DNA of 53,782 bases from Thiomargarita sp. (GCA_020721045.1 DYNN01000010.1:1-53782), one strand, 5' to 3'. Counted from the first letter of the stretch, positions 167 through 40,053 are shown. Numbers and translations: made by a program. Notes: a model not told the origin generated them from the sequence alone.

Positions 167-1078
167 TTATAGTCGTTCAATCAATTGATGCCAAACGCTA
201 TTTTGTCGCCAAAATGTATTTAATTGTTTTCGTAAAGCGGGTGACAAGGGTTGTCGCTCAATAGGCAGGCTAAAAGCCTCTTTAACAGCCTTATAATACC
301 ATGTAAATTCTAAAGATTGTGAAGCACGAACAAAACCTAAAAATAGGCGAGAAGCTATTAAATAAATCGCATCAGGAAGGGGAAAATAACGACGAATAAC
401 CCAAATGGTATTGCGCGTAGGGTAATAGACTCGTCGCCAATTTGTTCGTCCTAACGCTGCTTGACGATGTACAACCCGACATTGTGGATCGTAATGAATT
501 TTATATTGACGACACATCACGCGAATTGCCACTTCAATTTCGTTTTGGTATAAGAAGAATTCTCCCGGATACCAACCAATGTCTTCAAATAAATCACGTC
601 GAATGGCAAAACCACAGCCAACAAACGCCATAGAGGGACCTGGTTCATCATTGTGCGGCGTGTGCCAACTATGAACAGCTTCACCGGTCAATGCTTCAAT
701 ACGACAAGCCACAATCCCAATATCTGGGCGAGTTTCCAAACATTGAATCATACGATCTAGGGTTATTGTATCAACTGGATGCGAATCATCATCTAAAACA
801 AGAATATAATCGCCGCGCGCTTGTTTAAAACCTTCGTTATAGCCAGCGATACCAATATTAGTAGGCAGTTGTAGCACTGTGATCCAATGGGTTTGTGTGT
901 GTAAAAATGCGCCCGTTCCATCACTAGAACCGTTATCGACTGCGATTACTTCGATATCTTGACGATTTTCCAACAATTTCTCAATACGTGCTAAAGTATA
1001 ACGCGTTTCACATAAACGATTGAAATTTAAGAAAACAATACTTAATTTAGGTTTGAGTGATTCAACCATATGACTCAT
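167..1078 (-). CDS. Family 2 glycosyltransferase
   Basis: A 303-residue GT-A fold glycosyltransferase, predicted to move a sugar from a nucleotide donor to a surface-glycan acceptor at the inner face of the membrane. The N-terminus has the GT2 pattern: a beta strand (LSIVFLNFNR, residues 12-21), the nucleotide-binding VDNGSSDGTG (47-56), and a metal-binding DDD (96-98) in VLDDDSH. The middle carries GCGFAIRRDLFEDIGWYP, typical of rhamnosyltransferase-like GT2 proteins. There is no membrane anchor. The start is the first of two close ATGs, with a purine-rich GAGAAAG just upstream. It is the last gene of a minus-strand run that starts with sixA, but a 190-bp gap separates it from the cyclo-ligase gene, so it may have its own promoter. 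Donor and acceptor cannot be read from sequence. Confidence 0.85.
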   Translation of the reverse strand: MSHMVESLKPKLSIVFLNFNRLCETRYTLARIEKLLENRQDIEVIAVDNGSSDGTGAFLHTQTHWITVLQLPTNIGIAGYNEGFKQARGDYILVLDDDSHPVDTITLDRMIQCLETRPDIGIVACRIEALTGEAVHSWHTPHNDEPGPSMAFVGCGFAIRRDLFEDIGWYPGEFFLYQNEIEVAIRVMCRQYKIHYDPQCRVVHRQAALGRTNWRRVYYPTRNTIWVIRRYFPLPDAIYLIASRLFLGFVRASQSLEFTWYYKAVKEAFSLPIERQPLSPALRKQLNTFWRQNSVWHQLIERL

Positions 1079-1268
1079 TACTTTCTCGATAAAGGGAGTA
1101 ACAAATTGTAACGAAGATAGTTAGTTGCAATTTACATTTTGAGTGGTCACTCGTCGCTTTGTTTTAACCACGAGCATAAGACACGCTGATCTTATTATAA
1201 TCCACTTGTCAATCATTCTCTATAGTTATTTTGACATGCGGTTGAAAGTGTGATACTTAAAGCTAAGT

Positions 1269-1841
1269 TTAGAATGTCCAGACTGTCTCTGCGGTCACAC
1301 AAAAATCCATTTTTATATCTAATTCATGGATATCGTCAATTTTGTCGATAGGTGGGAAGTGGGAAAGTCCTACTTTGGTCGTTTTGTGAGTACAGCGTGC
1401 TAAAAATCGATCATAAAATCCTTTCCCATATCCCACCCTAAAACCCTGTTGATCAAAGCAAATTAAAGGTAAAAGCACCATTTCAATCAATTTTTCTGGA
1501 AACGGTTGTCCATTGATGGGTTGTGGAACATGCCATTTATTTTCAACTAAAATAGTGGTAGAGGTTAAAATAAAATGGAACATTTCACAAGTATCGAAGT
1601 TACTTTTTGAAACGATTATATTGATGTGTGGATAATTTTGCTGAATAGCCTGAATAATTAGATAAGTATTAATTTCATTACGCTGCAAAATTGGCAGAAA
1701 AATGTGTAAATTATTTATCTTAGTTAAATCAAAATATTGCAAAAAATGGGTTGTAATAGCTTGGTTTTTATTTTGTAAGACATCAGGGGTTAATTTTTTT
1801 CTCTCAGCTAAAAATTGCTGGCGCAAAGCATCCTTTATCAT
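1269..1841 (-). CDS. fau: 5-formyltetrahydrofolate cyclo-ligase
   Basis: A 190-residue protein of the 5-FCL/YgfA family, a cytoplasmic enzyme that uses ATP to convert 5-formyl-THF to 5,10-methenyl-THF and so returns a storage folate to the one-carbon pool. The family signature GYGKGFYDRFL lies near residues 138-148, and the N-terminal K-D-x-LR-QQ...AERK helix is also typical. Length matches the family (about 180-200). It starts with ATG, 15 bp after the rraA stop, so it is very likely co-transcribed with rraA. In many gammaproteobacteria this gene sits beside zapA and 6S RNA; neither is seen here. Confidence 0.88.
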   Translation of the reverse strand: MIKDALRQQFLAERKKLTPDVLQNKNQAITTHFLQYFDLTKINNLHIFLPILQRNEINTYLIIQAIQQNYPHINIIVSKSNFDTCEMFHFILTSTTILVENKWHVPQPINGQPFPEKLIEMVLLPLICFDQQGFRVGYGKGFYDRFLARCTHKTTKVGLSHFPPIDKIDDIHELDIKMDFCVTAETVWTF

Positions 1842-1856
1842 CGTAATTTATTGACG

Positions 1857-2342
1857 TTACTGTTGAGCGAGTTGATTAGGCGCAACAATAACACCATCAA
1901 AATCGGCGTATAAATAATGCTTAGGGAAAAATGTAACACCCGCAAAAGTCACAGGTATATCAATATCCCCCCTACCGTGCTTGATGCTTTTTAGAGGATG
2001 TGTGTTTAATGCTTTGATACCAATCGGAATTTTAGAAATTTCTTCTGAATCACGAATACAGCCATAAACAATAATCCCTTGCCAACCATGATCAGCAGCC
2101 ATTTGGGCTAAGTTCCCACCGACCAAAGCGCAACGCAATGATCCGCCACCATCAATCACTAATACTTTATTATTACCATCAGTATTTAACAAATTTTTCA
2201 CTAATGCGTTGTCTTCATGTACTTTAACCGTGACAATTTCGCCGGAGAATAATTGCTTTAATCCGTAAGATTTAAAAATCGGATCAACAACCTTAATTGA
2301 TTCAGGATGTATATCACATAAATCGGCTGTGTAGTTAAACAT
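1857..2342 (-). CDS. rraA: RraA-family protein (regulator of RNase E activity A)
   Basis: A 161-residue RraA-like protein, the length of the E. coli protein. In E. coli RraA binds RNase E and masks its degradosome scaffold, lowering mRNA decay. Family members can also act as metal-dependent HMG/oxaloacetate aldolases, so the name alone does not settle the role. Visible signatures are VIDGGGSLRCALVGGNLAQ (about residues 63-81), GWQGIIVYGCIRD (86-98) and the C-terminal YADFDGVIVAP. A strong AGGAG lies about 5 bases before the ATG. It begins 8 bp after the aminotransferase stop, which points to one operon with the sugar genes upstream. Confidence 0.9.
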   Translation of the reverse strand: MFNYTADLCDIHPESIKVVDPIFKSYGLKQLFSGEIVTVKVHEDNALVKNLLNTDGNNKVLVIDGGGSLRCALVGGNLAQMAADHGWQGIIVYGCIRDSEEISKIPIGIKALNTHPLKSIKHGRGDIDIPVTFAGVTFFPKHYLYADFDGVIVAPNQLAQQ

Positions 2343-2350
2343 AACGGCTC

Positions 2351-3511
2351 CTACATAATAGTTCGTATCGCTGTAATAACTTTTTTAACTTCTGCATCTG
2401 TCATGCTAGGATAAATGGGTAAACTGACCGCACGTTGGTAAGTTGCTAAAGCAATAGGAAAATCTTCTGGTTTTAAATCGTATAATGTTTGCCAATAGGG
2501 GTGTATATGTAAAGGGATAAAATGCACACTGGTCCCAATACCCGCATCGTGCATTTGAGTGATAAAACTGTCTCGATCGAAAGATAATTTTTCTAATTGT
2601 AATTGAATCACATATAAGTGCCAAGCATGTCCAAAATGGTTTACTTGCGGGTGTAAGTAGGGCGTATTAATAGGCAAATCGACAAAAGCTTGGGTATATT
2701 GTGCGGCAATTTCTGCGCGTCGTTGATGAAATTGATCGGCTTTAGCTAATTGATGAATGCCGATCGCAGCCATAATATCGCTGAGATTATATTTATAACC
2801 CGCTGCCATCACTTCATAGTACCAACTCGGTGTGTGAGCAACGTTGTGTTTGAAAATATCGCGCGTGATGCCATGTAAACGCATCAGCCTCATTTTTTCA
2901 ATATAATCAGCATTATCGGAAACAATCATACCGCCTTCACCTGTTGCCACTGGTTTGGTCACGTAGAAACTATAAACAGTGATGTCACCGAAATTACCTA
3001 CTTTACGTCCATTATAAAGACTGGGCAACGCATGAGCTGCGTCTTCTATGACTTTAACTTGGTAAGTCCGCGCTAATTGTAGAATGGTGTCCATTTCACA
3101 CGCTTGTCCGGCAAAATGCACTGGGATAATGGCTTTGACATTCTTTTCCCGTTTTAGACACAGTTCTAGTTGATTAGGATCAAGATTGAAAGTTTTTGGA
3201 TCAATATCGACGAAGATCGGATGAGCACCCAAATAGCGTATAACTTCAGCGGTTGCAGTAAATGTGTAAGGTGAGGTTATCACTTTATCATTTGCTTGAA
3301 TGCCAATTGTTTCCAGCGCAAGATGTAATCCCGCTGTGCAAGAATTAACGGCTAACGCATGAGACGCGCCAATATAATCAGCAAATTCGCTTTCAAAACG
3401 TTTAACTTTAGGACCAGAAGTGAGCCATCCTGAACGCAAAGTATCGACGACTTCATTAATTTCTTCTTCACCAATACAAGGTAAAGCAAAAGGCAGAAAT
3501 TGTTCACTCAC
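2351..3511 (-). CDS. DegT/DnrJ/EryC1/StrS family sugar aminotransferase
   Basis: A 386-residue PLP-dependent aminotransferase of the DegT/ArnB/WecE class, which aminates nucleotide-linked keto-sugars for surface polysaccharides. The active-site lysine is Lys186 in SFYVTKPVATGEGG, and VIEDAAHA (154-161) holds the PLP-contacting Asp. The opening PCIGEEEINEVVDTLRSGWLTSGP is characteristic. The start is GTG at 3509-3511, directly abutting the TAG of the capsule-like gene upstream, so translation is probably coupled. The nearest relatives are likely ArnB/PseC-type enzymes; the actual sugar is unknown because no dehydratase or epimerase gene lies beside it. Confidence 0.88.
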   Translation of the reverse strand: MSEQFLPFALPCIGEEEINEVVDTLRSGWLTSGPKVKRFESEFADYIGASHALAVNSCTAGLHLALETIGIQANDKVITSPYTFTATAEVIRYLGAHPIFVDIDPKTFNLDPNQLELCLKREKNVKAIIPVHFAGQACEMDTILQLARTYQVKVIEDAAHALPSLYNGRKVGNFGDITVYSFYVTKPVATGEGGMIVSDNADYIEKMRLMRLHGITRDIFKHNVAHTPSWYYEVMAAGYKYNLSDIMAAIGIHQLAKADQFHQRRAEIAAQYTQAFVDLPINTPYLHPQVNHFGHAWHLYVIQLQLEKLSFDRDSFITQMHDAGIGTSVHFIPLHIHPYWQTLYDLKPEDFPIALATYQRAVSLPIYPSMTDAEVKKVITAIRTIM

Positions 3512-4783
3512 CTATTTAGCACCATTCATACAGTTATTTTTAATCTGTTGTAATGTATGTTTATCATAATAATACACATTACCATTAATTTGATATTCGT
3601 ATTTTAGATAAGCAATAAATTGTTCGATTAATCTGACATCTATCGCTGTATCCTCATTGATAGTTGCGAGTATAGCATTAACTAAGTTTGCTTGGGTACT
3701 ACTCACTGTAATTCCTGATATTTTATAGAAAGCGTTGCCTAGTACTAAAACTGATTTATGTTGTAACAATGCTTCAAAACCAACAGTGGAATTAATGGTT
3801 ATCACAAGACGTGCTTTTGCAATTAATTGTTGGCTATCAGATTGATTAATTAAACTATTTTTATGAAATCGGTAGTGATAAATGCCTTGTTCCATCGGAT
3901 GAATTTTAAATACTAAACGATACTGTTGTTGAATTTCAGGTGGTAATTGTTGATAAGCTGTTTCGACACAATCAATAAATTCTTGCATATCAATGAAATC
4001 TGAATGGACTAATACTTGAGTATCAGTATTCACTTGCAGTGGTATAAAAAAATAATGTAGCGGTATATCACTACAAATTTGGCATCGTGAATGAGTAGGT
4101 AGCAATAATTTTAAATAATTTAACCATTGATATTCCTTATTTTTCAATCGCACATTAAATCGCAAAAAATCACCAATACGATTAATTAGTAAAAAACATC
4201 CAAATAAGCTATTTATCTTAATTTTTTGCCAAATAGATTGAGAATAATCTTTAAATTCAAACGATTGTATTTTGCAATTTCGATAAAAATCTGATTCGGT
4301 TGATAAACTATTATAAGCATTAACGCCTTGTTTATCTACAGTAATTGTGCTAGGACGAAAAATACCAAATTCAGTCACTAGATAACGAATTTGTAATTGT
4401 TGGCAGATTTTAATAGTGAGTGCGTGTTGCCAGCGCAAATCATTATGCATCAGGACACAATCAATAGCGTGATGAATTAAAAATTGTTTTATAAAAGCAA
4501 TGTAACGCGCTTGATAACTAATTTCATCGGTTGACAACGCTCTATTTTCCCGTTTACGTGCTTGTTCAGAATATAATGTTTTGATATTTGAGGCTAAATC
4601 ATAATCGTCTGATTGATAGGGATAATTTTTAATGACATGATGAATATAAATTTTTTGACAGCGATGCAAATAAATAACAAAGCCAACGTTAAAAATAAAA
4701 GCATATACTTTTCCGTTGGCAATATAGTGGGCAACATCTTGTTCTAAAAATGAATAATTTGGTTCTAAAATAAGTAAATTCAC
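3512..4783 (-). CDS. KpsS-like capsule polysaccharide protein (putative GT-B transferase)
   Basis: A 423-residue protein I read as a member of the capsule-synthesis (KpsS/KpsC/LipB-like) group. The C-terminal half has VFKIHPMEQG (around 294-303) and, about 30 residues later, ITINSTVGFEALLQHKSVLVLG followed by FYKISG. This HP...STVG.EAL..GK.V..LG pattern is shared by KpsS-type Kdo transferases and related GT-B enzymes. The N-terminal half is divergent. No transmembrane segment is evident. The start is GTG, overlapping the sixA stop in a GTGA, so translation is coupled. Low-complexity K/Q/I-rich composition reflects the AT-rich genome. It could instead transfer another sugar or a phospho-alditol; only the fold-level call is firm. 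Confidence 0.62.
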   Translation of the reverse strand: MNLLILEPNYSFLEQDVAHYIANGKVYAFIFNVGFVIYLHRCQKIYIHHVIKNYPYQSDDYDLASNIKTLYSEQARKRENRALSTDEISYQARYIAFIKQFLIHHAIDCVLMHNDLRWQHALTIKICQQLQIRYLVTEFGIFRPSTITVDKQGVNAYNSLSTESDFYRNCKIQSFEFKDYSQSIWQKIKINSLFGCFLLINRIGDFLRFNVRLKNKEYQWLNYLKLLLPTHSRCQICSDIPLHYFFIPLQVNTDTQVLVHSDFIDMQEFIDCVETAYQQLPPEIQQQYRLVFKIHPMEQGIYHYRFHKNSLINQSDSQQLIAKARLVITINSTVGFEALLQHKSVLVLGNAFYKISGITVSSTQANLVNAILATINEDTAIDVRLIEQFIAYLKYEYQINGNVYYYDKHTLQQIKNNCMNGAK

Positions 4784-11039: not shown

Positions 11040-11684
11040 ATGACACCCTTAACTCGTTTTATAATCCGTGTGATATTGCTTGCGTTACCGATTTTTGGAT
11101 TATGGTGGATTAGCATACCCGTTATTTTATCAATACTTGCAGTACCCGTGAGTACATTGACTGCACATTGGTTTGAACGGGAACAAGTGACAATAGAAGT
11201 TACAGAAGAACGTTGGTTGGTACATACAAAAATTTTGGAAAAACAGCCAATTGGACAAACATCGCAAGTATTAGTGTTAAAGTTGGAAAAGAAGATGTTT
11301 ATCTCTTTTATTATGGGATTACCATTATTATGGATATTGTTGCTTGCTGCTTCAGGGACGTTAAAGGAAAAGTTGTGGAAATTATTGATAGGTAATATAT
11401 TTCTTAGTATTCCTATCATACTGACACTGCATATTAGGATCGTGTATTTTCTGGGTATTTTGATGTCTGGTGACAATGTGGGACAAATTTTAGTGATGGA
11501 CGGATTGTACCAAACAGTTCAACCTTATTCTGTTGAAATATTAGCGATTTTTAATGGATTTACCAAATTGATGGCTTATGTCAATTTTCTTGTGTTTCCA
11601 GCCGTTATCAGTTACTTCTTACACCGTGAGTTTGTTAGCCATTTATTAAAAAAATTAAATCAATGTCATGAAATTACGTCATAA
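11040..11684 (+). CDS. Multi-pass membrane protein of unknown function
   Basis: A 214-residue protein with four to five hydrophobic segments: about 7-40, 83-102, 112-145 and 165-195. A soluble stretch (45-80, rich in E/K/V) lies between the first and second. I do not recognise it firmly. The N-terminal layout faintly resembles the small membrane proteins found beside exosortase genes, but no exosortase is here. It begins 10 bp after gltX and its last 17 bases overlap the start of the PP2C phosphatase gene, so the two are likely translated together and may work together at the membrane. Confidence 0.6.
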   Translation: MTPLTRFIIRVILLALPIFGLWWISIPVILSILAVPVSTLTAHWFEREQVTIEVTEERWLVHTKILEKQPIGQTSQVLVLKLEKKMFISFIMGLPLLWILLLAASGTLKEKLWKLLIGNIFLSIPIILTLHIRIVYFLGILMSGDNVGQILVMDGLYQTVQPYSVEILAIFNGFTKLMAYVNFLVFPAVISYFLHREFVSHLLKKLNQCHEITS

Positions 11685-13509
11685 AACGGCTTTAATTGTT
11701 ATCATTACAATTACTTGTTTAATCAGCATGATATATGTCATGACTCGTTATATTTTGCTAAATAATATTAAGGAAGCTGAAAAACACCAAATTGAGCAAA
11801 AAGTAGATGGTTTTGTTAGTTTATTCAATAAGGTGCAATACAATTCTAGCACACCTTTTGCAGATTGGGCGCAATGGGATGATCCTTACTATTTTGTACA
11901 AGATCGTAATCAAGCATTTATTGATGAGAATTTAAGTTTGAATACTGTCGCTGTTTTAAAACTAAATATGATGTTATTCATTGATAAAAAAGAGCAATTT
12001 GTTCATGGCATTGGTTTTGACCAAGTTCGTTTGACGCTGGACATGCTACCGCCCGCTATACAACAAGTGATTCAACCAAATAGTCTTTTTTTAAAACATT
12101 CACATATTCGTAGCATTCACATGGGATTGTTATTATTGGAAGATAAGCTATTTTGGATAGTTACTTTGCCTTTACTGAAAAATGAAGCAAAAGGTGAAAT
12201 GATGGGAAATTTAGTTGTTGGACGTTATTTGGAAGACGATTTTTGGCAAGATTTGGTACAAGTCACGCATTTAAAACTGGAATTACACCGCTTAGATGAA
12301 TTAAATTTACCCACTGACTTTCAAATGGCACTGACGCAAATTTCTACAGATAACAAGATTATATCTATTCCACAAAATGATGAAATTATCGGGGGTTACG
12401 CAATAATAAATGATATTTATGACCATCCTGCGTTAATTTTACGTTTAGACGCACCTAGAATCATTTTTAAACATGGACAACAAAGTATTCGATATTTAAT
12501 TATTTCACTCGTGGTTGCTGGTTTATTATTTGTATTTATCGTATTGTTATTAATGGAAAAATTGATTGTATCACGCCTTGCTAACCTCAGCGCTGATGTT
12601 GAAAAAGTGGGTGTGAGTGGCGATTTATCCTTACGTGTGGCTATAGTTGGAAAAGATGAATTGTTAATTTTAGCCAATAATATCAATAAGATGTTATCTA
12701 AATTGAAACATTCACAAGATGAAATCGCTATTTTGAATCAAAAGTTACAAGTGGAAAATCTACGCATGGGGGCGGAATTAGAAATTAGCCGTCAATTGCA
12801 ACAAATGGTACTGCCTACACAGGAAGAATTAAGTAAAATTAAAGAGTTAGATATTGCTGCTTTCATGGTTGCAGCTGATGAAGTGGGCGGTGATTATTAC
12901 GATATTTTACAGCATGAAGGTTTGATTAAAATTGGCATTGGTGATGTGACTGGACATGGGCTTGCTAGCGGCGTTTTGATGTTGATGGTGCAAATGGCAG
13001 TACGGACTTTATTAATTAATGGTGTGACAGATCCAAAAATCTTTCTAGATGTGTTAAATCGTGCCATGTATAGTAATGTGCAACGGATGAATTCTGATAA
13101 AAATTTGACTTTGTTGCTTATTGATTATAACCAAGGCGTGTTACATCTCAGTGGACAGCATGAGGAAATTTTGTTGGTACGTCAAACAACGGGATTTGTA
13201 GAACGCATTGATACTTTCGATTTAGGTTTTATCGTGGGTTTAGAAGAAGATATCAGCGGTTTTATTACTAATATGGAAATTACTTTGCAGCTAGGTGATG
13301 GGATCGTTTTATACACAGACGGTATTACTGAAGCGATGGATATGGATAAAAATCAATATGGTATAGAACGTTTATGTGAAGTGATCAGTCGGTCTTGGCA
13401 TCAACCTGCAATTGCAATTCAACATGCAGTTATTGATGATGTGCATCGGTTTATCGGTCAACAGAAGGTGTTTGATGATATTACGTTGTTGGTGTTGAAA
13501 CAGCGTTAA
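11668..13509 (+). CDS. CHASE4-HAMP-PP2C (SpoIIE-type) membrane phosphatase
   Basis: A 613-residue transmembrane phosphatase. The N-terminus is a membrane segment (8-28) followed by a periplasmic CHASE4-like sensor with the signature FADWAQWDDPYYF (64-76). A second membrane segment lies near 275-296, then a HAMP linker (297-352), a short coiled coil, and a SpoIIE/RsbU-type PP2C domain from about 371 to the end. Metal-binding acidic residues are visible in ADEVGGDYYD, IGIGDVTGHG and LYTDGITEAMD. Such proteins sense an outside signal and dephosphorylate a STAS-domain anti-sigma-factor antagonist. No RsbW-like kinase lies beside it; the only STAS protein in the window is at 32160-32522. It overlaps the upstream membrane protein by 17 bases. 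Confidence 0.88.
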   Translation: MKLRHKTALIVIITITCLISMIYVMTRYILLNNIKEAEKHQIEQKVDGFVSLFNKVQYNSSTPFADWAQWDDPYYFVQDRNQAFIDENLSLNTVAVLKLNMMLFIDKKEQFVHGIGFDQVRLTLDMLPPAIQQVIQPNSLFLKHSHIRSIHMGLLLLEDKLFWIVTLPLLKNEAKGEMMGNLVVGRYLEDDFWQDLVQVTHLKLELHRLDELNLPTDFQMALTQISTDNKIISIPQNDEIIGGYAIINDIYDHPALILRLDAPRIIFKHGQQSIRYLIISLVVAGLLFVFIVLLLMEKLIVSRLANLSADVEKVGVSGDLSLRVAIVGKDELLILANNINKMLSKLKHSQDEIAILNQKLQVENLRMGAELEISRQLQQMVLPTQEELSKIKELDIAAFMVAADEVGGDYYDILQHEGLIKIGIGDVTGHGLASGVLMLMVQMAVRTLLINGVTDPKIFLDVLNRAMYSNVQRMNSDKNLTLLLIDYNQGVLHLSGQHEEILLVRQTTGFVERIDTFDLGFIVGLEEDISGFITNMEITLQLGDGIVLYTDGITEAMDMDKNQYGIERLCEVISRSWHQPAIAIQHAVIDDVHRFIGQQKVFDDITLLVLKQR

Positions 13510-27456: not shown

Positions 27457-28083
27457 ATGAATACAACAAAACGTTTAAAAGTTCCACCGACCAAAAGTAC
27501 CTTGCTCAATTTAAAAAGAAAAGTTACTTTTTTAGAACAAGGACATACACTATTAGAGCGAAAAAAAGAATTATTAACTCGCCTAGTTTATGAACGATTA
27601 AGACAATACCGTACTTTGCGTAAAGAAGCTAAAATTGCCGTTGAAACTGCTTATTATTGGTTAGGTGTGACGCATATGCGCATGGGCAGTCATGCTTTAC
27701 AACAAGCAGCACTGGGTGCCCAACTACCTTTAGCCGTTAAAATTTTGCCGCGTAGCAGTATTGGCGTGCAATATCCTGCTGTGACCGCAGAACGTCTGCC
27801 ATTACAACCAGTTGGCTTAATGGGGACTGAAACTAGTTTTGATGAAACACGTCGCTATTTAGCCGATATGGTTGTTTTATTAGCCCGTTTAGGTGAAGCT
27901 GAAACTGCATTATGGCGTTTATTAGAAGAACAGAGAAAAACTCAAAAGCGAGTTAATGCTTTGAAATATAACGTAATTCCTCAATATAAAGAAACGATTC
28001 ATTTTATCAATGCTACTTTAGAAGAAGAAGAACGCAATACTTTGTTTCAAATAAAAATATTAAGAGAGAGAAAACGGGCGTAA
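27457..28083 (+). CDS. V/A-type ATPase subunit D, isolated
   Basis: A 208-residue subunit D of the V/A-type ATPase, the central-stalk coiled coil that turns inside the A3B3 head. The N-terminal helix VPPTKSTLLNLKRK...EQGHTLLERKKELL and the C-terminal helix KTQKRVNALKYNVIPQYKETIHFI...LEEEERNTLFQIKILRERK match Thermus and Chlamydia subunit D closely, including the RVNALE/K...VIP block. Normally it sits in an operon with A, B, E, I and K; none is here. Either the operon is split in this genome or this is a stray copy. Confidence 0.88.
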   Translation: MNTTKRLKVPPTKSTLLNLKRKVTFLEQGHTLLERKKELLTRLVYERLRQYRTLRKEAKIAVETAYYWLGVTHMRMGSHALQQAALGAQLPLAVKILPRSSIGVQYPAVTAERLPLQPVGLMGTETSFDETRRYLADMVVLLARLGEAETALWRLLEEQRKTQKRVNALKYNVIPQYKETIHFINATLEEEERNTLFQIKILRERKRA

Positions 28084-28185: not shown

Positions 28186-28830
28186 TTAATTTTTGTGAGC
28201 ATAGTATCGGTACTGTTTTAATTGAATAGGTTCGCGCCCTTGTTGTATACGCCATTGATTTGTATCACGTAATGAATAAATACAACCACAATATTCTTGA
28301 GAATAGAACTGTTCTTGTTTAGCAATTTCAAGCATACGCTGCGAACCGCCCTGTTTGCGCCAGTTATGTGTCCAATAAGTTAAATCCGTATAACGATTGG
28401 CAGCACGCTCACCACATTCATTGACTTGCTGCATATTTTTCCAACGCGAGATGCCCAACGAACTGGTAAAAATTTTAAATCCATGTTCATGTGCATACAA
28501 CGCTGAACGTTCTAATCGCATGTCAAAGCAGGCAGTACAACGTTGTCCGCGTTCTGGCTCATACTCTAAACCCTTAGTTCGCGTAAACCAATTATCTGGA
28601 TCATAATCGGCATCAATGAAGGGAATTTTGTGTTTTTCCGCAAATCTTATATTTTCTTGCTTACGTATTTCGTATTCGTTTTTTGGGTGAATATTGGGAT
28701 TGTAAAAAAATACGGTGTATTTCACTCCAATACTTTGTAATGATTGCATAATTTCTCCAGAACAAGGTGCACAACAAGAGTGGAGTAATACTTTTTTCTC
28801 ATGATTGGGTACGGTTAATGATATGGACAT
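28186..28830 (-). CDS. queH: Epoxyqueuosine reductase QueH
   Basis: A 214-residue QueH (formerly DUF208) that reduces epoxyqueuosine to queuosine in tRNA with an iron-sulfur cluster, a non-homologous replacement for QueG. The vicinal cysteines are Cys19-Cys20 in [12 protein letters not shown], with further cysteines in [13 protein letters not shown] and [24 protein letters not shown] is also diagnostic. It is the last gene of the STAS-export-kinase block but is separated from it by 51 bp and has its own CGGAAA ribosome site. Its function is unrelated. Confidence 0.93.
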
Positions 28831-28881: not shown

Positions 28882-30996
28882 TCAGAACAGTCTGGATAAC
28901 CAACTGCGTTGTACTTTTTTACCAGTTGCATATTCTTTGAGTAAATCTGAAAAATAGCCATCACCTTTATAAACTTTTACCCGATTAATGATAGCACCTA
29001 CAGAAGGTGGATTTAAACGTTCCAATAAATGTGCGGCTCGTTTTAATTCGCTGGGTTCAACATGTTCAGCTTCAATAATCAATAAGATACAATCGGCAAT
29101 ATCTCCTAATAATTCTGCATCGGCTGATAATAAAATGGGCGGGCTGTCTAATAAAATTAGATCATATTGACTTTTTAATTGGGTCAAAATTGCGTTCAGT
29201 TGCCCTGCTGTAGCCATCAAATGTCGTTGCGCAACAGGTCCTACTGGTAAACGATCTGGCATAGAATCAGATGCAGGAATGATTAAGGCATTAAGCATAT
29301 TTAAAGAGACCGTCGGATAACTGAGCACACTATGTAAACCACCTTGAGCATGACCATTGTAACGATTATCTGGATTAAAGGCGTTTAATTCAACAGCTAA
29401 AGCACGTAAACCTAATAAATTCAAATGATGTGCTAATTCTAAAACCAAAGTTGTGGTACCACTACCCGGTTTCACTGGTGTTAAAGCAAAGCACCTATTT
29501 TTATGTTGATTTTTCTCTCGATAAAAAGTAAAAGCTAAACGCCGTAGTTGATCTAAAGTAAATTGTTGAGTAATTTCATTTTTACGCTCAAAAATCCAAG
29601 CCAATGGTGCAAAACCTAGAATTTTTTGAACCTCATTAGGCGTACGAATGCGTCGATCAATAATATCAATTAACATCGGTGTGGTTATACCTAAACCTAA
29701 CGCAATCACAATGACTAATAATGCTAATTTTCGACTTCCAGTACCCATTGCTACCGTTGTGGGTGTGGCTGGTGTATCCAATCGGGCAAAACCTGGTGAG
29801 TGAGATTCAATAGTCAAGAAATCAATTCGATTGCTTATTTGACGCAGTTGCTCATAAGCACGCTCCAAATCACGACTGATCAATAACGCTTCATTATAAC
29901 GACTGGCGTAATAAGTGGCTTGTTTTTGTTGTAGAGAAACCTCATTAGCTAGGGCTTTTTCTATACTACTTGCTTGTTGAATTGTGGCTTTATGCTTATC
30001 TATCAATTGTTGACGTGTTTCAGCTAAAGCCGTATTAGTTGCTTGCACTAAATCATGTTTTAACTTGTTAATTTCTTGTTCAGCCCGTTGTCGTCCGGGA
30101 TGATCTGGCGTCATATTCAGCGTTTCTGTGGTTAAATCAGCCTGTCTTTGCATGATTTTAGATTTGAAATTTTTTAATACGCTGTCTTCAGCCACAATTT
30201 GTTGGGCTAATGAATCTAATACTGTATTGCCCTTATCATCACGTTTATATAAGGCAGATAAAGCGGCTTCTGCTTCAACACGACGTTGTCGACTTGCAAC
30301 TTGGCTTGAAGTGCTATCAATGAGAATTTTATCATAAGGATTTAACACACCCTCTTTAAAAGTTGTTACACCTAATTCTTGGGCAATTTTAGTACGTTGT
30401 TCATTCCATTGTGGAATTAAATTAGAGAGTTGATCACGTCGGTTTTTTAAAGTTGTAATACGACCATCACTATCGTACAAATTTTCAGACTGAGATTTGC
30501 GCAAATAAATATCGACAATTGCGTTTAAAATAACGTCTAGCCCCTCTGGATTTTCATTTTCTAAAGTTACTGTAATCAATGGATTACGTTTAGAGCTAGA
30601 AGTATCCATTGCCTCTTTTAACCGTTTTAACGCTTTTTTATCTTCTTCACCCGATTTAACCCACAATGATCTAATTATAGGTAGTTGCAATGCTTCTTGT
30701 AACACATCCTCACGCATCAGCATATGCTCTTGTTGTGCTGAATACAGTAGATATTCTTGCCCTCGCAAATCTGTACTTCTTTCATCCAAATTACTGGCAG
30801 ATTGGGCAGAAATTAAAATCATGGCGCGTACCATATAGCTGGGTTTACCCTTTTCTATGGCAATGGGTATACCAATGGAAATAATGGCTGTCACTATAAG
30901 AAATATAAGCCATTTATGGTTAAGCAAACTGACTAAAGGCTTAAAACGCCCAGTTGCAATGGCTGAATCTGACGATTGAGTAATAGAAGAAGACAT
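28882..30996 (-). CDS. Wzz/Wzc-like chain-length protein with defective BY-kinase domain
   Basis: A 704-residue inner-membrane protein of the polysaccharide co-polymerase class. Two membrane helices (about 28-48 and 425-445) bracket a large periplasmic Wzz region with a long coiled coil (about 180-400). The cytoplasmic C-terminus is a BY-kinase-type P-loop domain, but Walker A reads KPGSGTTT at about 508: the lysine-serine of GKS is Thr-Thr. Walker A' (normally LLIDADLR) reads LAVELNAFNP, losing the catalytic Asp. Walker B LILLDSPP is intact. There is no tyrosine-rich tail. It is likely a structural chain-length regulator without kinase activity. It begins 2 bp after the Wza-like gene. Confidence 0.85.
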   Translation of the reverse strand: MSSSITQSSDSAIATGRFKPLVSLLNHKWLIFLIVTAIISIGIPIAIEKGKPSYMVRAMILISAQSASNLDERSTDLRGQEYLLYSAQQEHMLMREDVLQEALQLPIIRSLWVKSGEEDKKALKRLKEAMDTSSSKRNPLITVTLENENPEGLDVILNAIVDIYLRKSQSENLYDSDGRITTLKNRRDQLSNLIPQWNEQRTKIAQELGVTTFKEGVLNPYDKILIDSTSSQVASRQRRVEAEAALSALYKRDDKGNTVLDSLAQQIVAEDSVLKNFKSKIMQRQADLTTETLNMTPDHPGRQRAEQEINKLKHDLVQATNTALAETRQQLIDKHKATIQQASSIEKALANEVSLQQKQATYYASRYNEALLISRDLERAYEQLRQISNRIDFLTIESHSPGFARLDTPATPTTVAMGTGSRKLALLVIVIALGLGITTPMLIDIIDRRIRTPNEVQKILGFAPLAWIFERKNEITQQFTLDQLRRLAFTFYREKNQHKNRCFALTPVKPGSGTTTLVLELAHHLNLLGLRALAVELNAFNPDNRYNGHAQGGLHSVLSYPTVSLNMLNALIIPASDSMPDRLPVGPVAQRHLMATAGQLNAILTQLKSQYDLILLDSPPILLSADAELLGDIADCILLIIEAEHVEPSELKRAAHLLERLNPPSVGAIINRVKVYKGDGYFSDLLKEYATGKKVQRSWLSRLF

Positions 30997-30998
30997 AA

Positions 30999-32135
30999 TT
31001 ATTCGAAACCTTGATTGGCGGCTTTTTCATTTTCTAAATCAATGCGTTCGGCATCAAGACGCTCTTGTTGTTGATCAAGCACCCGGCGTTGTTTATCAGC
31101 ACGGATAGATTCAATATCCGCATAAATACCCAAAATTGTGCTAAATGGTGTGAGAAATTTAATTGCGTAATTAATTTTAGCAATCGTATTTGTTGGTACA
31201 TAGATAATATCATTTTCTTGTAGCGCAATATTTAACCGTTGATTTGGCGTAATAATTTCGTCTAAAGCCAATTCTTGATTGATACCTTCATTAGGACGAA
31301 TAATATTAATCCGATTGGGTGCTGCGTCAATCGTTGGACCACCGGCTTTTGCTAATGCTTCAACAAAAGACATATTGGGCGTCAGACGTAATGCACCCGG
31401 ATTTTTGACTTCACCCAGTACATAAATTAATCTTTCTTCAACATCAGGAACATAAAGAATATCATTACGTTGCAGCATTAAATTCAATGATAAATCCTTT
31501 CCTTTTAACAAGGGTTCTAATTCAATCCATGCCACTTGTGATCGACCTCGAAAAATAGCGCAACGAGTAAATGGTAAGCTTTGTCCATTTTCTAAACCAG
31601 TGGGTTCAACAAAACCGCCTGCTAACGAAATCGCCTCTAACACCGTTGGAGCAGTCATTTCAAAACGAATTTCACCCGGTTTTTTGACTCGACCCAACAC
31701 TAAAACACGATTAGAGTAATAACGATTTACTTTGATTGTCGTTTTCAGATCAACATAATATTTTTTCAAGGCAACATTAATTTGCTTAGCAGCTTGTTGT
31801 CGCGATAAATGAGCAATGTTGTAATTACCAACAATCGGTAAAGTGATATTACCATCGGGACCAATTGTATGTGTACCAGATAATTCGGGATAACCCCAGA
31901 CATCAACACTGATTTCATCGCCAGTGCCCAGTAAATAATCATGGTTATCGTCTGCATTAGTGGCTTTAAAAGTGGCTAATGGATCAGGCGGCGTTAAGGT
32001 AATTTCTTCCCGAGGGGATGGTAAAGTAAATTGTTCAGGCAGAGAAATTGTTGTGCTACAACCACCTATTAAATTGCTGCTTACCCATAAGCAAGCTACC
32101 AATAGGATGTGGTTAACTAAAGGGGAAATTTGCAT
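30999..32135 (-). CDS. Wza-like outer-membrane polysaccharide export lipoprotein
   Basis: A 378-residue polysaccharide export protein. It has a lipoprotein signal with lipidation at Cys26 (NLIGGC), a poly-export domain opening with YLLGTGDEISVDVWGYPELSG (about 67-87), then two SLBB repeats: GEIRFEMTAPTVLEAISLAGG and, later, GALRLTPNMSFVEALAKAGG. The C-terminal 40 residues are highly charged (DKQRRVLDQQQERLDAERIDLE) and probably form a helix. Proteins of this type form the outer-membrane channel for capsule or exopolysaccharide. STAS lies 24 bp upstream and the Wzc-like gene 2 bp downstream. Confidence 0.92.
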   Translation of the reverse strand: MQISPLVNHILLVACLWVSSNLIGGCSTTISLPEQFTLPSPREEITLTPPDPLATFKATNADDNHDYLLGTGDEISVDVWGYPELSGTHTIGPDGNITLPIVGNYNIAHLSRQQAAKQINVALKKYYVDLKTTIKVNRYYSNRVLVLGRVKKPGEIRFEMTAPTVLEAISLAGGFVEPTGLENGQSLPFTRCAIFRGRSQVAWIELEPLLKGKDLSLNLMLQRNDILYVPDVEERLIYVLGEVKNPGALRLTPNMSFVEALAKAGGPTIDAAPNRINIIRPNEGINQELALDEIITPNQRLNIALQENDIIYVPTNTIAKINYAIKFLTPFSTILGIYADIESIRADKQRRVLDQQQERLDAERIDLENEKAANQGFE

Positions 32136-32159
32136 AAATTGTAACTAATCGTGCGAGTA

Positions 32160-32522
32160 TCATGGATGGGTATGATGTGTTTTCTTTTGGGCACAATACG
32201 CAACTGCCGCATTTTCATCAAGATAAATAAAAAAAGTATATTGTAATTGAGTCAATTCAATTAAAGCGCGTACTTTTATAGTTGGATTTAATAATAACAC
32301 ATCACCTTGACAATATTGAGCCCGTTTTAATACAGAGACAAAAGTGGATAATCCTTTAACATCGATAAAATTTAATGAACTCAAGTCGATAATTAAATAG
32401 GGTGATTGTTGCGTTATTAATTGATTTAACTGATATTTTACTTCTTGCACTTCAGAACCCAGTAAGCTGCCAAAAAATTGTGCAATTTGTACACTATTAA
32501 CTGAACGACACTCCACATGCAT
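32160..32522 (-). CDS. STAS-domain protein lacking the phosphorylatable serine
   Basis: A 120-residue single STAS domain of the SpoIIAA/RsbV type, normally an anti-sigma-factor antagonist switched by serine phosphorylation. LIIDLSSLNFIDVKGLSTFVSVL (43-65) aligns with the SpoIIAA region FMDSSGLG; the phosphorylated Ser58 of SpoIIAA corresponds to Val55 here, and the next Ser to Lys56. The protein therefore cannot be switched in the classical way. It heads the operon with the Wza- and Wzc-like genes, as sypA heads the syp locus of Vibrio fischeri. Role in controlling export or synthesis is inferred. Confidence 0.8.
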   Translation of the reverse strand: MHVECRSVNSVQIAQFFGSLLGSEVQEVKYQLNQLITQQSPYLIIDLSSLNFIDVKGLSTFVSVLKRAQYCQGDVLLLNPTIKVRALIELTQLQYTFFIYLDENAAVAYCAQKKTHHTHP

Positions 32523-32663
32523 CTCAATTATTCCTGTTAAAATTAAAATAAACTTTGGCTTCTTCTGAGGTTATTCAATTCAATATGATAAAGTGATACA
32601 TTGACGCACAGCAAATATGAGACCAAATTAAAACAATTAGTTATCGTATGTAAATTGACTATG

Positions 32664-32797
32664 TCACCTTACGCACAACAGTGTTTGTAGGGTGCATAAA
32701 CGCAGTGTCATGCACCAAGCAATTTCAACATCACAAAGGTGTATGACGCTTCGCTTATACACCCTACAAGCTACAAAATTTTGTCTGCGTAAGGTGA
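32664..32797. mobile_element. MITE with terminal inverted repeats and direct-repeat flanks
   Basis: Terminal repeats TCACCTTACGCA (32664-32675) and TGCGTAAGGTGA (32786-32797) are exact complements. Inside, 31-base arms at 32686-32716 and 32738-32768 pair at 26 positions and include TGTAGGGTG...CACC, a motif of widespread bacterial hairpin repeats. TGACTATG flanks both sides (32656-32663 and 32799-32806), as expected for a target duplication of 8-9 bp. No reading frame is present, so it would depend on a transposase elsewhere. Confidence 0.75.
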
Positions 32798-32987
32798 GTG
32801 ACTATGTCATGAAGCATTCATCAATTTTTCTCTTAATGAAGCTAAGTTTACTATATATATTACAATAAATACTAAAAAAAATTAATCTATAAAAAAACCA
32901 TGTCCATAGAAGATTTTATCATATACGTGTTTTGTTGTGTTGCGATTACCCTATCGAGACGGCTGGTCGAAATAACATGATGCAGTA

Positions 32988-32993
32988 TATAAT
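32988..32993 (+). promoter_or_regulatory. Candidate -10 box for the hybrid kinase gene
   Basis: TATAAT, a perfect -10, lies 36 bases before the ATG of the hybrid kinase. The matching -35 region is poor (TGGTCG), so an activator may be needed. Confidence is limited because the region is AT-rich. Confidence 0.4.
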
Positions 32994-33029
32994 GGTGTCA
33001 AAATAAACTTTAACTTTCCTTTAAAAATC

Positions 33030-39085: not shown

Positions 39086-39442
39086 ATGCCATCTCAGACT
39101 ATATTGGTCGCTGACGACAGTCGTGTATCTCGGATGCTAATACGGGCAATCATTACTCAAGCCAATGCACAAGCTGAAGTAATCGAAGCCAGTAACGGAG
39201 AAGAAGCATTAAGCAAAACAGAATCCATAGAGATTACAATGGCAACTTTAGACTTAAATATGCCGGGCATGGATGGTTTATTGTTAGCTGCCGAACTGTT
39301 GGAACGCTTTCCTAAAGCGAAAATTGTTTTACTCACCGCAAATATCCAAGAAGCAGTCCGAAAGAAAGCAGATGCGCTAGGGATTGGATTTATTTCTAAG
39401 CCAATCACTGAGGAAAAAATTTTAGCCTTTATTAAAGGATGA
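39086..39442 (+). CDS. Stand-alone CheY-like response regulator
   Basis: A 118-residue single receiver domain. The acidic pocket is Asp10-Asp11, the phosphoacceptor is Asp56 in ATLDLNMPGMDG, the switch Thr is in VLLTAN (about 84), and Lys is in FISKPI (about 106), so all active residues are kept. No output domain. GGAAAA precedes the ATG. The next gene is a CheC-type phosphatase overlapping or abutting its stop, so the pair likely forms a phospho-switch in which the phosphatase resets the regulator. The kinase could be the nearby hybrid kinase or a Che system elsewhere. Confidence 0.93.
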   Translation: MPSQTILVADDSRVSRMLIRAIITQANAQAEVIEASNGEEALSKTESIEITMATLDLNMPGMDGLLLAAELLERFPKAKIVLLTANIQEAVRKKADALGIGFISKPITEEKILAFIKG

Positions 39443-39447
39443 TCATT

Positions 39448-40053
39448 ATGCAGCTAACAGAGTTGCACCTCGATGCGATTGCTGAATTACTTAATATTGG
39501 TATGGGACAAGCAACTGATTCATTAAGCCAAATTCTTAATGAAGAGGTTAAATTATCTGTTCCTAGTGTACAGTTATTGTCCCGCGTAAGTGCTGCTAAT
39601 AATATAGATAACGGAAAAGCCATACCTATTGTTGCGGTTAAACAGCATTTTGACGGTCCATTTTGGGGAGACGCGCTCTTATTATTTCCGCAAAACAAAA
39701 GTTTGGAATTAGTACAAGCGATTGTTAAAGAAAGAGTTTCTCAAGAAGAATTACTTGAATTAGAACAAGACGCACTTAATGAAATTGGTAATATCATTTT
39801 AACGTCTTGTTTAAGCAGTTTGGGCAACATCCTGACCCATGAAGTGATTAGCAGCGTACCCTCATTTATTTCTGGACCCGCGATTAAAATCATCAACGAC
39901 ACCGGTAAAGACGAAGAAGATGTCGTTATGTTTCTGCGAATGGATTTTGAACTGCACATCAAAGATATCTACGGCTATGTTGCTTTTATCTTAGAAGTCG
40001 CCGCTGTTGAGCGTTTTAAAGAAAGTATCGATAAATATATTGGGTTAATCTAA
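39448..40053 (+). CDS. CheC-type CheY-P phosphatase
   Basis: A 201-residue CheC/CheX/FliY-family phosphatase. Both active-site helices are complete: Asp9-x3-Glu13-x2-Asn16-x22-Pro39, and Asp108-x3-Glu112-x2-Asn115-x22-Pro138. This two-site layout is that of CheC. No CheD lies beside it. The frame opens at an ATG at 39439 overlapping the CheY stop, but AAGGA (39435-39439) is 8 bases from the ATG at 39448, which I prefer. Its last 9 bases overlap the thyX end in convergent orientation. Confidence 0.9.
   Translation: MQLTELHLDAIAELLNIGMGQATDSLSQILNEEVKLSVPSVQLLSRVSAANNIDNGKAIPIVAVKQHFDGPFWGDALLLFPQNKSLELVQAIVKERVSQEELLELEQDALNEIGNIILTSCLSSLGNILTHEVISSVPSFISGPAIKIINDTGKDEEDVVMFLRMDFELHIKDIYGYVAFILEVAAVERFKESIDKYIGLI

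Follow-up and report, generated by a model that had tools for sequence, protein, structure and literature searches.

Ser58 of SpoIIAA and Ser56 of SypA each sit in a D-S-S-G-type motif. Ser56 is the residue via which SypE controls the STAS protein SypA, which is active when unphosphorylated, including in its S56A form (PMC4517449). SypA is reported to act below transcription, and its target is unknown (PMC10120452, PMC11112999); the targets of STAS-only proteins are varied and often unknown (PMC8256260). In the syp and eps loci, the published order is A (STAS), B, C (Wza) and D (Wzc) (PMC5801674). For the Wzc-type component, E. coli Wzc remains octameric when its Walker box lysine is mutated (K540M; PMC8285477), and the BY pseudokinases EcpK and HfsB have been proposed as scaffolds, with fused examples also listed (PMC12004946). 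We found no paper in an open-access library on a STAS–Wza–Wzc unit in Beggiatoa-type bacteria.

Here, we describe such a unit in Thiomargarita sp. The window, i.e. the whole stretch of DNA analysed, comprises 53,782 nt (GCA_020721045.1 DYNN01000010.1:1-53782), and coordinates count from its start (Table 1). The initial annotation had described STAS, export lipoprotein and Wzz/BY-kinase-like genes in this order on the minus strand, facing a hybrid kinase, and the ORFs are as placed there. Because the intergenic gaps are 24 bp (STAS/Wza) and 2 bp (Wza/Wzc), the three genes fit a single operon; promoter and terminator scans gave results no better than shuffles. It is also correct that no glycosyltransferase follows Wzc: the gene directly downstream is queH, while many relatives have a GT2 glycosyltransferase there instead.

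Table 1. Features at and around the STAS–Wza–Wzc operon of the window
Feature	Length	Position	Strand	Domains and remarks
queH, epoxyqueuosine reductase, not in module		28186..28830	-	PF02677
Wzc-type polysaccharide co-polymerase, PCP-2a layout	704 aa	28882..30996	-	BY-kinase-like C-terminal half, degenerate
Wza/OPX-type outer-membrane polysaccharide export lipoprotein	378 aa	30999..32135	-	Poly_export + two SLBB (Pfam)
STAS single-domain protein	120 aa	32160..32522	-	PF01740, E=8e-13
Short inverted-repeat (MITE-like) element, STAS/hybrid-kinase intergenic region		32664..32797	.	
Hybrid histidine kinase, divergent	1267 aa	33030..36833	+	4HB_MCP-HAMP-GAF-HisKA-HATPase_c-3xREC (Pfam)

The MITE-like element (region 32656-32809) has terminal inverted repeats TCACCTTACGCA and an inner 32-nt inverted repeat; it is flanked by a direct TGACTATGTCA at 32656-32666 and 32799-32809, which looks like a target duplication. 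The window further encodes a V-type ATP synthase subunit D homologue (27457-28083, +), a CheY-like protein with a CheC/CheX-type phosphatase after it (39086-40053, +) and a second polysaccharide gene set with GT2, a DegT aminotransferase and a PF05159 capsule protein (167-4783, -).

The STAS, Wza-type and Wzc-type genes stand in the same relative order as in Vibrio fischeri syp and V. diabolicus eps, and the likeness to the syp locus drawn earlier is a fair one, minus SypB (order as in PMC5801674). Nevertheless, there are distinct differences. The operon lacks sypB, SypE and adjacent glycosyltransferases, with its synthesis genes dispersed, and its STAS protein has no equivalent of SypA Ser56. 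The gene order and its detachment from synthesis genes are confirmed, but switching of the syp type is not supported.

The loci of relatives were found by an alignment scan of genome contigs, as a single-protein scan gave none. Besides the window's own genome, 18 of 35 same-family genomes encode a full-length Wzc ortholog (44-52% identity), and agreement in contigs and coordinates identified five more Wzc-positive genomes (L124=G060, L111=G057, L110=G058, L117=G059, L101=G061). The Wza–Wzc pair occurs in 24 of the 42 genomes of the family, and the named relatives with Wzc are Thiomargarita, Thioploca, Beggiatoa, Parabeggiatoa, Halobeggiatoa, Albibeggiatoa and Marithrix. Outside the family, a class-wide draw yielded full-length Wzc relatives only in G176, G108 and one Bryobacterales MAG; all remaining genomes of the draw gave at most 62 bits, mostly to the kinase domain only, and the family clade is fully supported against these three in the Wza–Wzc tree. 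Wza precedes Wzc, directly or nearly, in every locus where both are visible; in one (L037) a TonB-receptor ORF lies between them. STAS is found directly in front of Wza in 11 family loci (at least ten genomes), and the STAS–Wza–Wzc order is kept in two of the outside relatives (G108, G176). As Wza and Wzc stand together in all visible loci, with STAS preceding in 11, the gene order is far beyond chance, and the neighbourhood conservation on which the earlier reading had been made to depend does hold among relatives. STAS is missing from at least eight genomes that retain Wza–Wzc, so export in those genomes does not depend on it.

The hybrid kinase fares differently. Among the relatives, G022 alone has its ortholog close to the operon, some 4 kb from Wza, and none was seen there in the loci of the others; we therefore rejected the kinase as a conserved part of the module, in which its membership is doubtful, and the shared syp-type regulation suggested earlier is not supported. 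By Pfam, the kinase has no HPt domain. In G019, a 2381-aa protein with several glycosyltransferase domains directly follows Wzc (L045:2208-9353, -). The Bryobacterales MAG (L120) has Wza–Wzc in a contiguous glycosyltransferase cluster without STAS, its Wzc being 34% identical; transfer or mis-binning is possible.

The Wza protein has a lipobox, LIGGC, whose Cys26 is invariant in the family alignment, and thus combines the Poly_export, SLBB and lipobox cysteine of OPX/Wza export lipoproteins. Its match to TIGR03027/EpsE is below the cut-off, and in the window's genome it matches only itself.

The Wzc-type protein has the PCP-2a layout, a periplasmic co-polymerase fused to a BY-kinase fold, as in E. 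coli Wzc. Its top Foldseek matches are cryo-EM structures of Wzc and Wza–Wzc, including the K540M P-loop mutant; the AlphaFold model of the cytoplasmic half, in which many residues have pLDDT <70 and pTM is 0.35, was too weak for an assessment of the pocket. The kinase motifs are degenerate. The window protein reads VKPGSGTTT at the P-loop and VELNAFNPD at Walker A', and it has no C-terminal Tyr cluster; it thus naturally lacks the lysine that K540M removes in E. coli Wzc, as well as the Tyr-rich tail. Within the family, the P-loop is VKPGGGTTT or a close variant and Walker A' has changed from LIDADMR to VELNAFKPD; the P-loop of the outside relatives reads EAGVT, GSGVT or RGGTS. The P-loop Lys, Walker A' Asp and Tyr tail are absent from all Wzc orthologs inspected, whereas other Wzc proteins of the class have these motifs. 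Walker B (LLDTPP, DxPP) is retained, and family Wzc proteins have a Lys five residues before the missing P-loop Lys position, presumably at the signature Lys site of deviant Walker A motifs. Since P-loop Lys, Walker A' Asp and Tyr cluster are all gone, window-type Wzc looks like a fused BY pseudokinase, with the motif loss predicting inactivity. The call of a Wzz/BY-kinase-like protein was right as to the fold, but had overlooked the missing active kinase motifs. EcpK/EpsV, HfsB/HfsA and the fused V. vulnificus VV1_2305 likewise have a BY-kinase fold that has lost Walker A, Walker A' and the Tyr tail; compared with such pseudokinases, the window Wzc is fused to the PCP in one polypeptide, keeps Walker B and is linked to STAS.

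The STAS protein has the anti-sigma-antagonist fold: its AlphaFold2 model has a pLDDT of 94, and the best Foldseek match is SpoIIAA (1tid). Its TIGR00377 match of 42 bits is under the 53-bit cut-off of that model. A sulfate-transporter STAS, which would have spoken against the earlier annotation, was considered and rejected (SulP 28 bits, SpoIIAA 57; the gene is a stand-alone domain), and the protein groups with anti-sigma-antagonist rather than SulP STAS. In fold it resembles, and in sequence it is closely related to, the STAS component of RsbU-RsbW-RsbV-type switches (SpoIIAA/RsbV, HsbRDA, BtrUWV, HmpUWV). The phosphosite differs. Where such proteins have F-D-S-S-G-L, the window STAS aligns FIDVKGL, the phosphoacceptor Ser being replaced by Val, and in all 11 family STAS proteins at the operon this position is taken by Ala, Val or Ile, whereas Ser occupies it in almost every other partner-switch STAS protein obtained from the class. 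As judged from the alignment, family STAS proteins at the operon are probably not phosphorylated, though other residues could be phosphoacceptors. The 11 Ser-less proteins form one group, with a weak support of 50, and are scattered over the entire Wza–Wzc tree; the simplest history is that the serine was lost once, early on, and that several lineages then lost the whole gene. The window's genome encodes other STAS domains on other contigs (SulP, MlaB-like, MlaE-fused), and no other anti-anti-sigma STAS was found in it.

Neither a SypE-like nor an RsbW-like protein is encoded next to the window operon, and no RsbW-type kinase was seen beside the 11 family STAS loci; two of their contigs (L036, L124) start just upstream of STAS, so a neighbouring gene is possible there. 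A clear stand-alone RsbW is missing from the window's genome, where the best listed PF13581 matches lie in large histidine kinases. An RsbW-like gene occurs elsewhere in four genomes of the 11 loci (G015, G019, G032, G060), and inspection of those in G032, G060, G015, G019, G033 and G018 found no STAS of the window type nearby. Two Marithrix genomes (G003, G027) have a Ser-type STAS and RsbW elsewhere, adjoining a priming transferase. Most of the other retrieved Ser-type STAS genes of the class adjoin an RsbW-type kinase and a PP2C phosphatase. Relatives keep PP2C-RsbW-STAS(DSSG), while the family operon is without the phosphoserine, adjacent kinase and phosphatase. G108 has a complete partner switch in five overlapping ORFs, REC-PP2C, RsbW, STAS (FMDSSGL), Wza and Wzc, although the exact overlaps are approximate because longest-ORF starts were used; G176 has a Ser-type STAS-Wza-Wzc without adjacent RsbW. 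Complete PP2C-RsbW-STAS switches are also present at L127, L128 and L129, the latter two preceding a different Wza-type gene and a protein of ~470 aa without a Pfam match. Separately, the window encodes a CHASE4-HAMP-SpoIIE PP2C phosphatase (11668-13509, +), one of only two SpoIIE matches in its genome.

The remaining Wzx/Wzy components appear to be encoded away from the operon. In G176, flippase, Wzy, acyltransferase, GT2, GT4, Wzc, Wza and STAS form a contiguous cluster. In the window's genome, homologues of synthesis genes lie on four other contigs and are likely partners of the window operon: C25 carries Wzy (458 aa) and flippase (538 aa), C158 acyltransferase and nucleotidyltransferase, C174 a priming-transferase fusion together with a GT4-like gene, and C189 GT2. 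A Wzy homologue is present in 23 of 24 Wzc-positive family genomes, the sole exception being 63% complete, and in 1 of 18 Wzc-negative genomes (G018), with a Fisher p of 1e-9 that is inflated by species relatedness. At ortholog level, GT2 occurs in 19 Wzc-positive and no Wzc-negative genomes, adjoining Wzc in about half. In the closed genome G002, Wzy is 1.0 Mb from Wzc, which, together with the four contigs, bears out the suggestion of an export module detached from synthesis.

From the conservation, motif losses, co-occurrence and dispersal seen in these sequences, we consider it reasonably probable that the operon is a pseudokinase export arm of a dispersed Wzx/Wzy system with STAS as a phosphorylation-independent partner. 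The system would produce an exopolysaccharide in the Beggiatoa/Thiomargarita group, with the Wza lipoprotein as outer-membrane channel, the Wzc-type protein as inner-membrane co-polymerase, and flippase, polymerase and transferases encoded elsewhere in the genome. As the Wzc-type protein appears to be a BY pseudokinase, tyrosine autophosphorylation would not drive its assembly cycle. The STAS protein would descend from the antagonist of a PP2C-RsbW-STAS switch, such as still stands ahead of Wza–Wzc in G108; in the family, the phosphoserine would have gone, along with the adjacent kinase and phosphatase genes, and several lineages would later have lost the STAS gene altogether. It is now most likely a constitutively 'unphosphorylated' partner and, by analogy with SypA, would be in effect a natural S56A-like form. 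We infer that it probably docks on the cytoplasmic pseudokinase domain, favouring the assembled co-polymerase; gene adjacency is what suggests this link. A more specific version, in which STAS has replaced tyrosine phosphorylation as the controller of Wzc, from an ancestral Ser-switch (as in G108) to a permanent subunit that binds the pseudokinase directly, is a tentative proposal.

Alternatively, STAS could be a functionless leftover of the lost partner switch, still translated because it leads the operon. Its loss at the operon in several Wza–Wzc lineages agrees with this, as does the divergence of the L042/L045 pair, in which STAS is 45% identical compared with 69-73% for Wza and Wzc. However, the STAS ORF is intact in all 11 loci, the modelled fold is of high confidence, the core residues are invariant in the alignment, and dN is much lower than dS in both pairs with estimable dS (a third pair is saturated), so that we regard a relic as unlikely. 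Rather improbable is a new partner outside export, such as an anti-sigma factor or cyclase, with the promoter merely shared: the varied targets of STAS-only proteins (PMC8256260) would allow it, but the link to Wza–Wzc persists across the family and two outside relatives. A compact syp-type locus, in which, as in Vibrio fischeri, a SypE/RsbW-like enzyme controlled by the hybrid kinase opposite would switch STAS at its serine, is very improbable despite the syp A-(B)-C-D-like order (PMC5801674), the divergent kinase with its G022 ortholog and the PP2C phosphatase in the window, given that the SypA-type serine is absent 11 times out of 11, SypB is lacking, the window's genome has no clear RsbW and the kinase was not seen near the operon in other relatives' loci.

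The giant sulfur bacteria of this group are known for sheaths and mats. The reading of a pseudokinase export arm with a STAS partner would give them a Wzx/Wzy pathway that keeps its export genes in a conserved operon and has its polymerase and transferase genes dispersed. With the phospho-switch decayed, the persistence of STAS beside Wza and an apparently kinase-dead Wzc through long divergence makes the co-polymerase a reasonable candidate for the STAS target; if STAS does bind the pseudokinase, this would identify the target so far missing for SypA-like STAS proteins.
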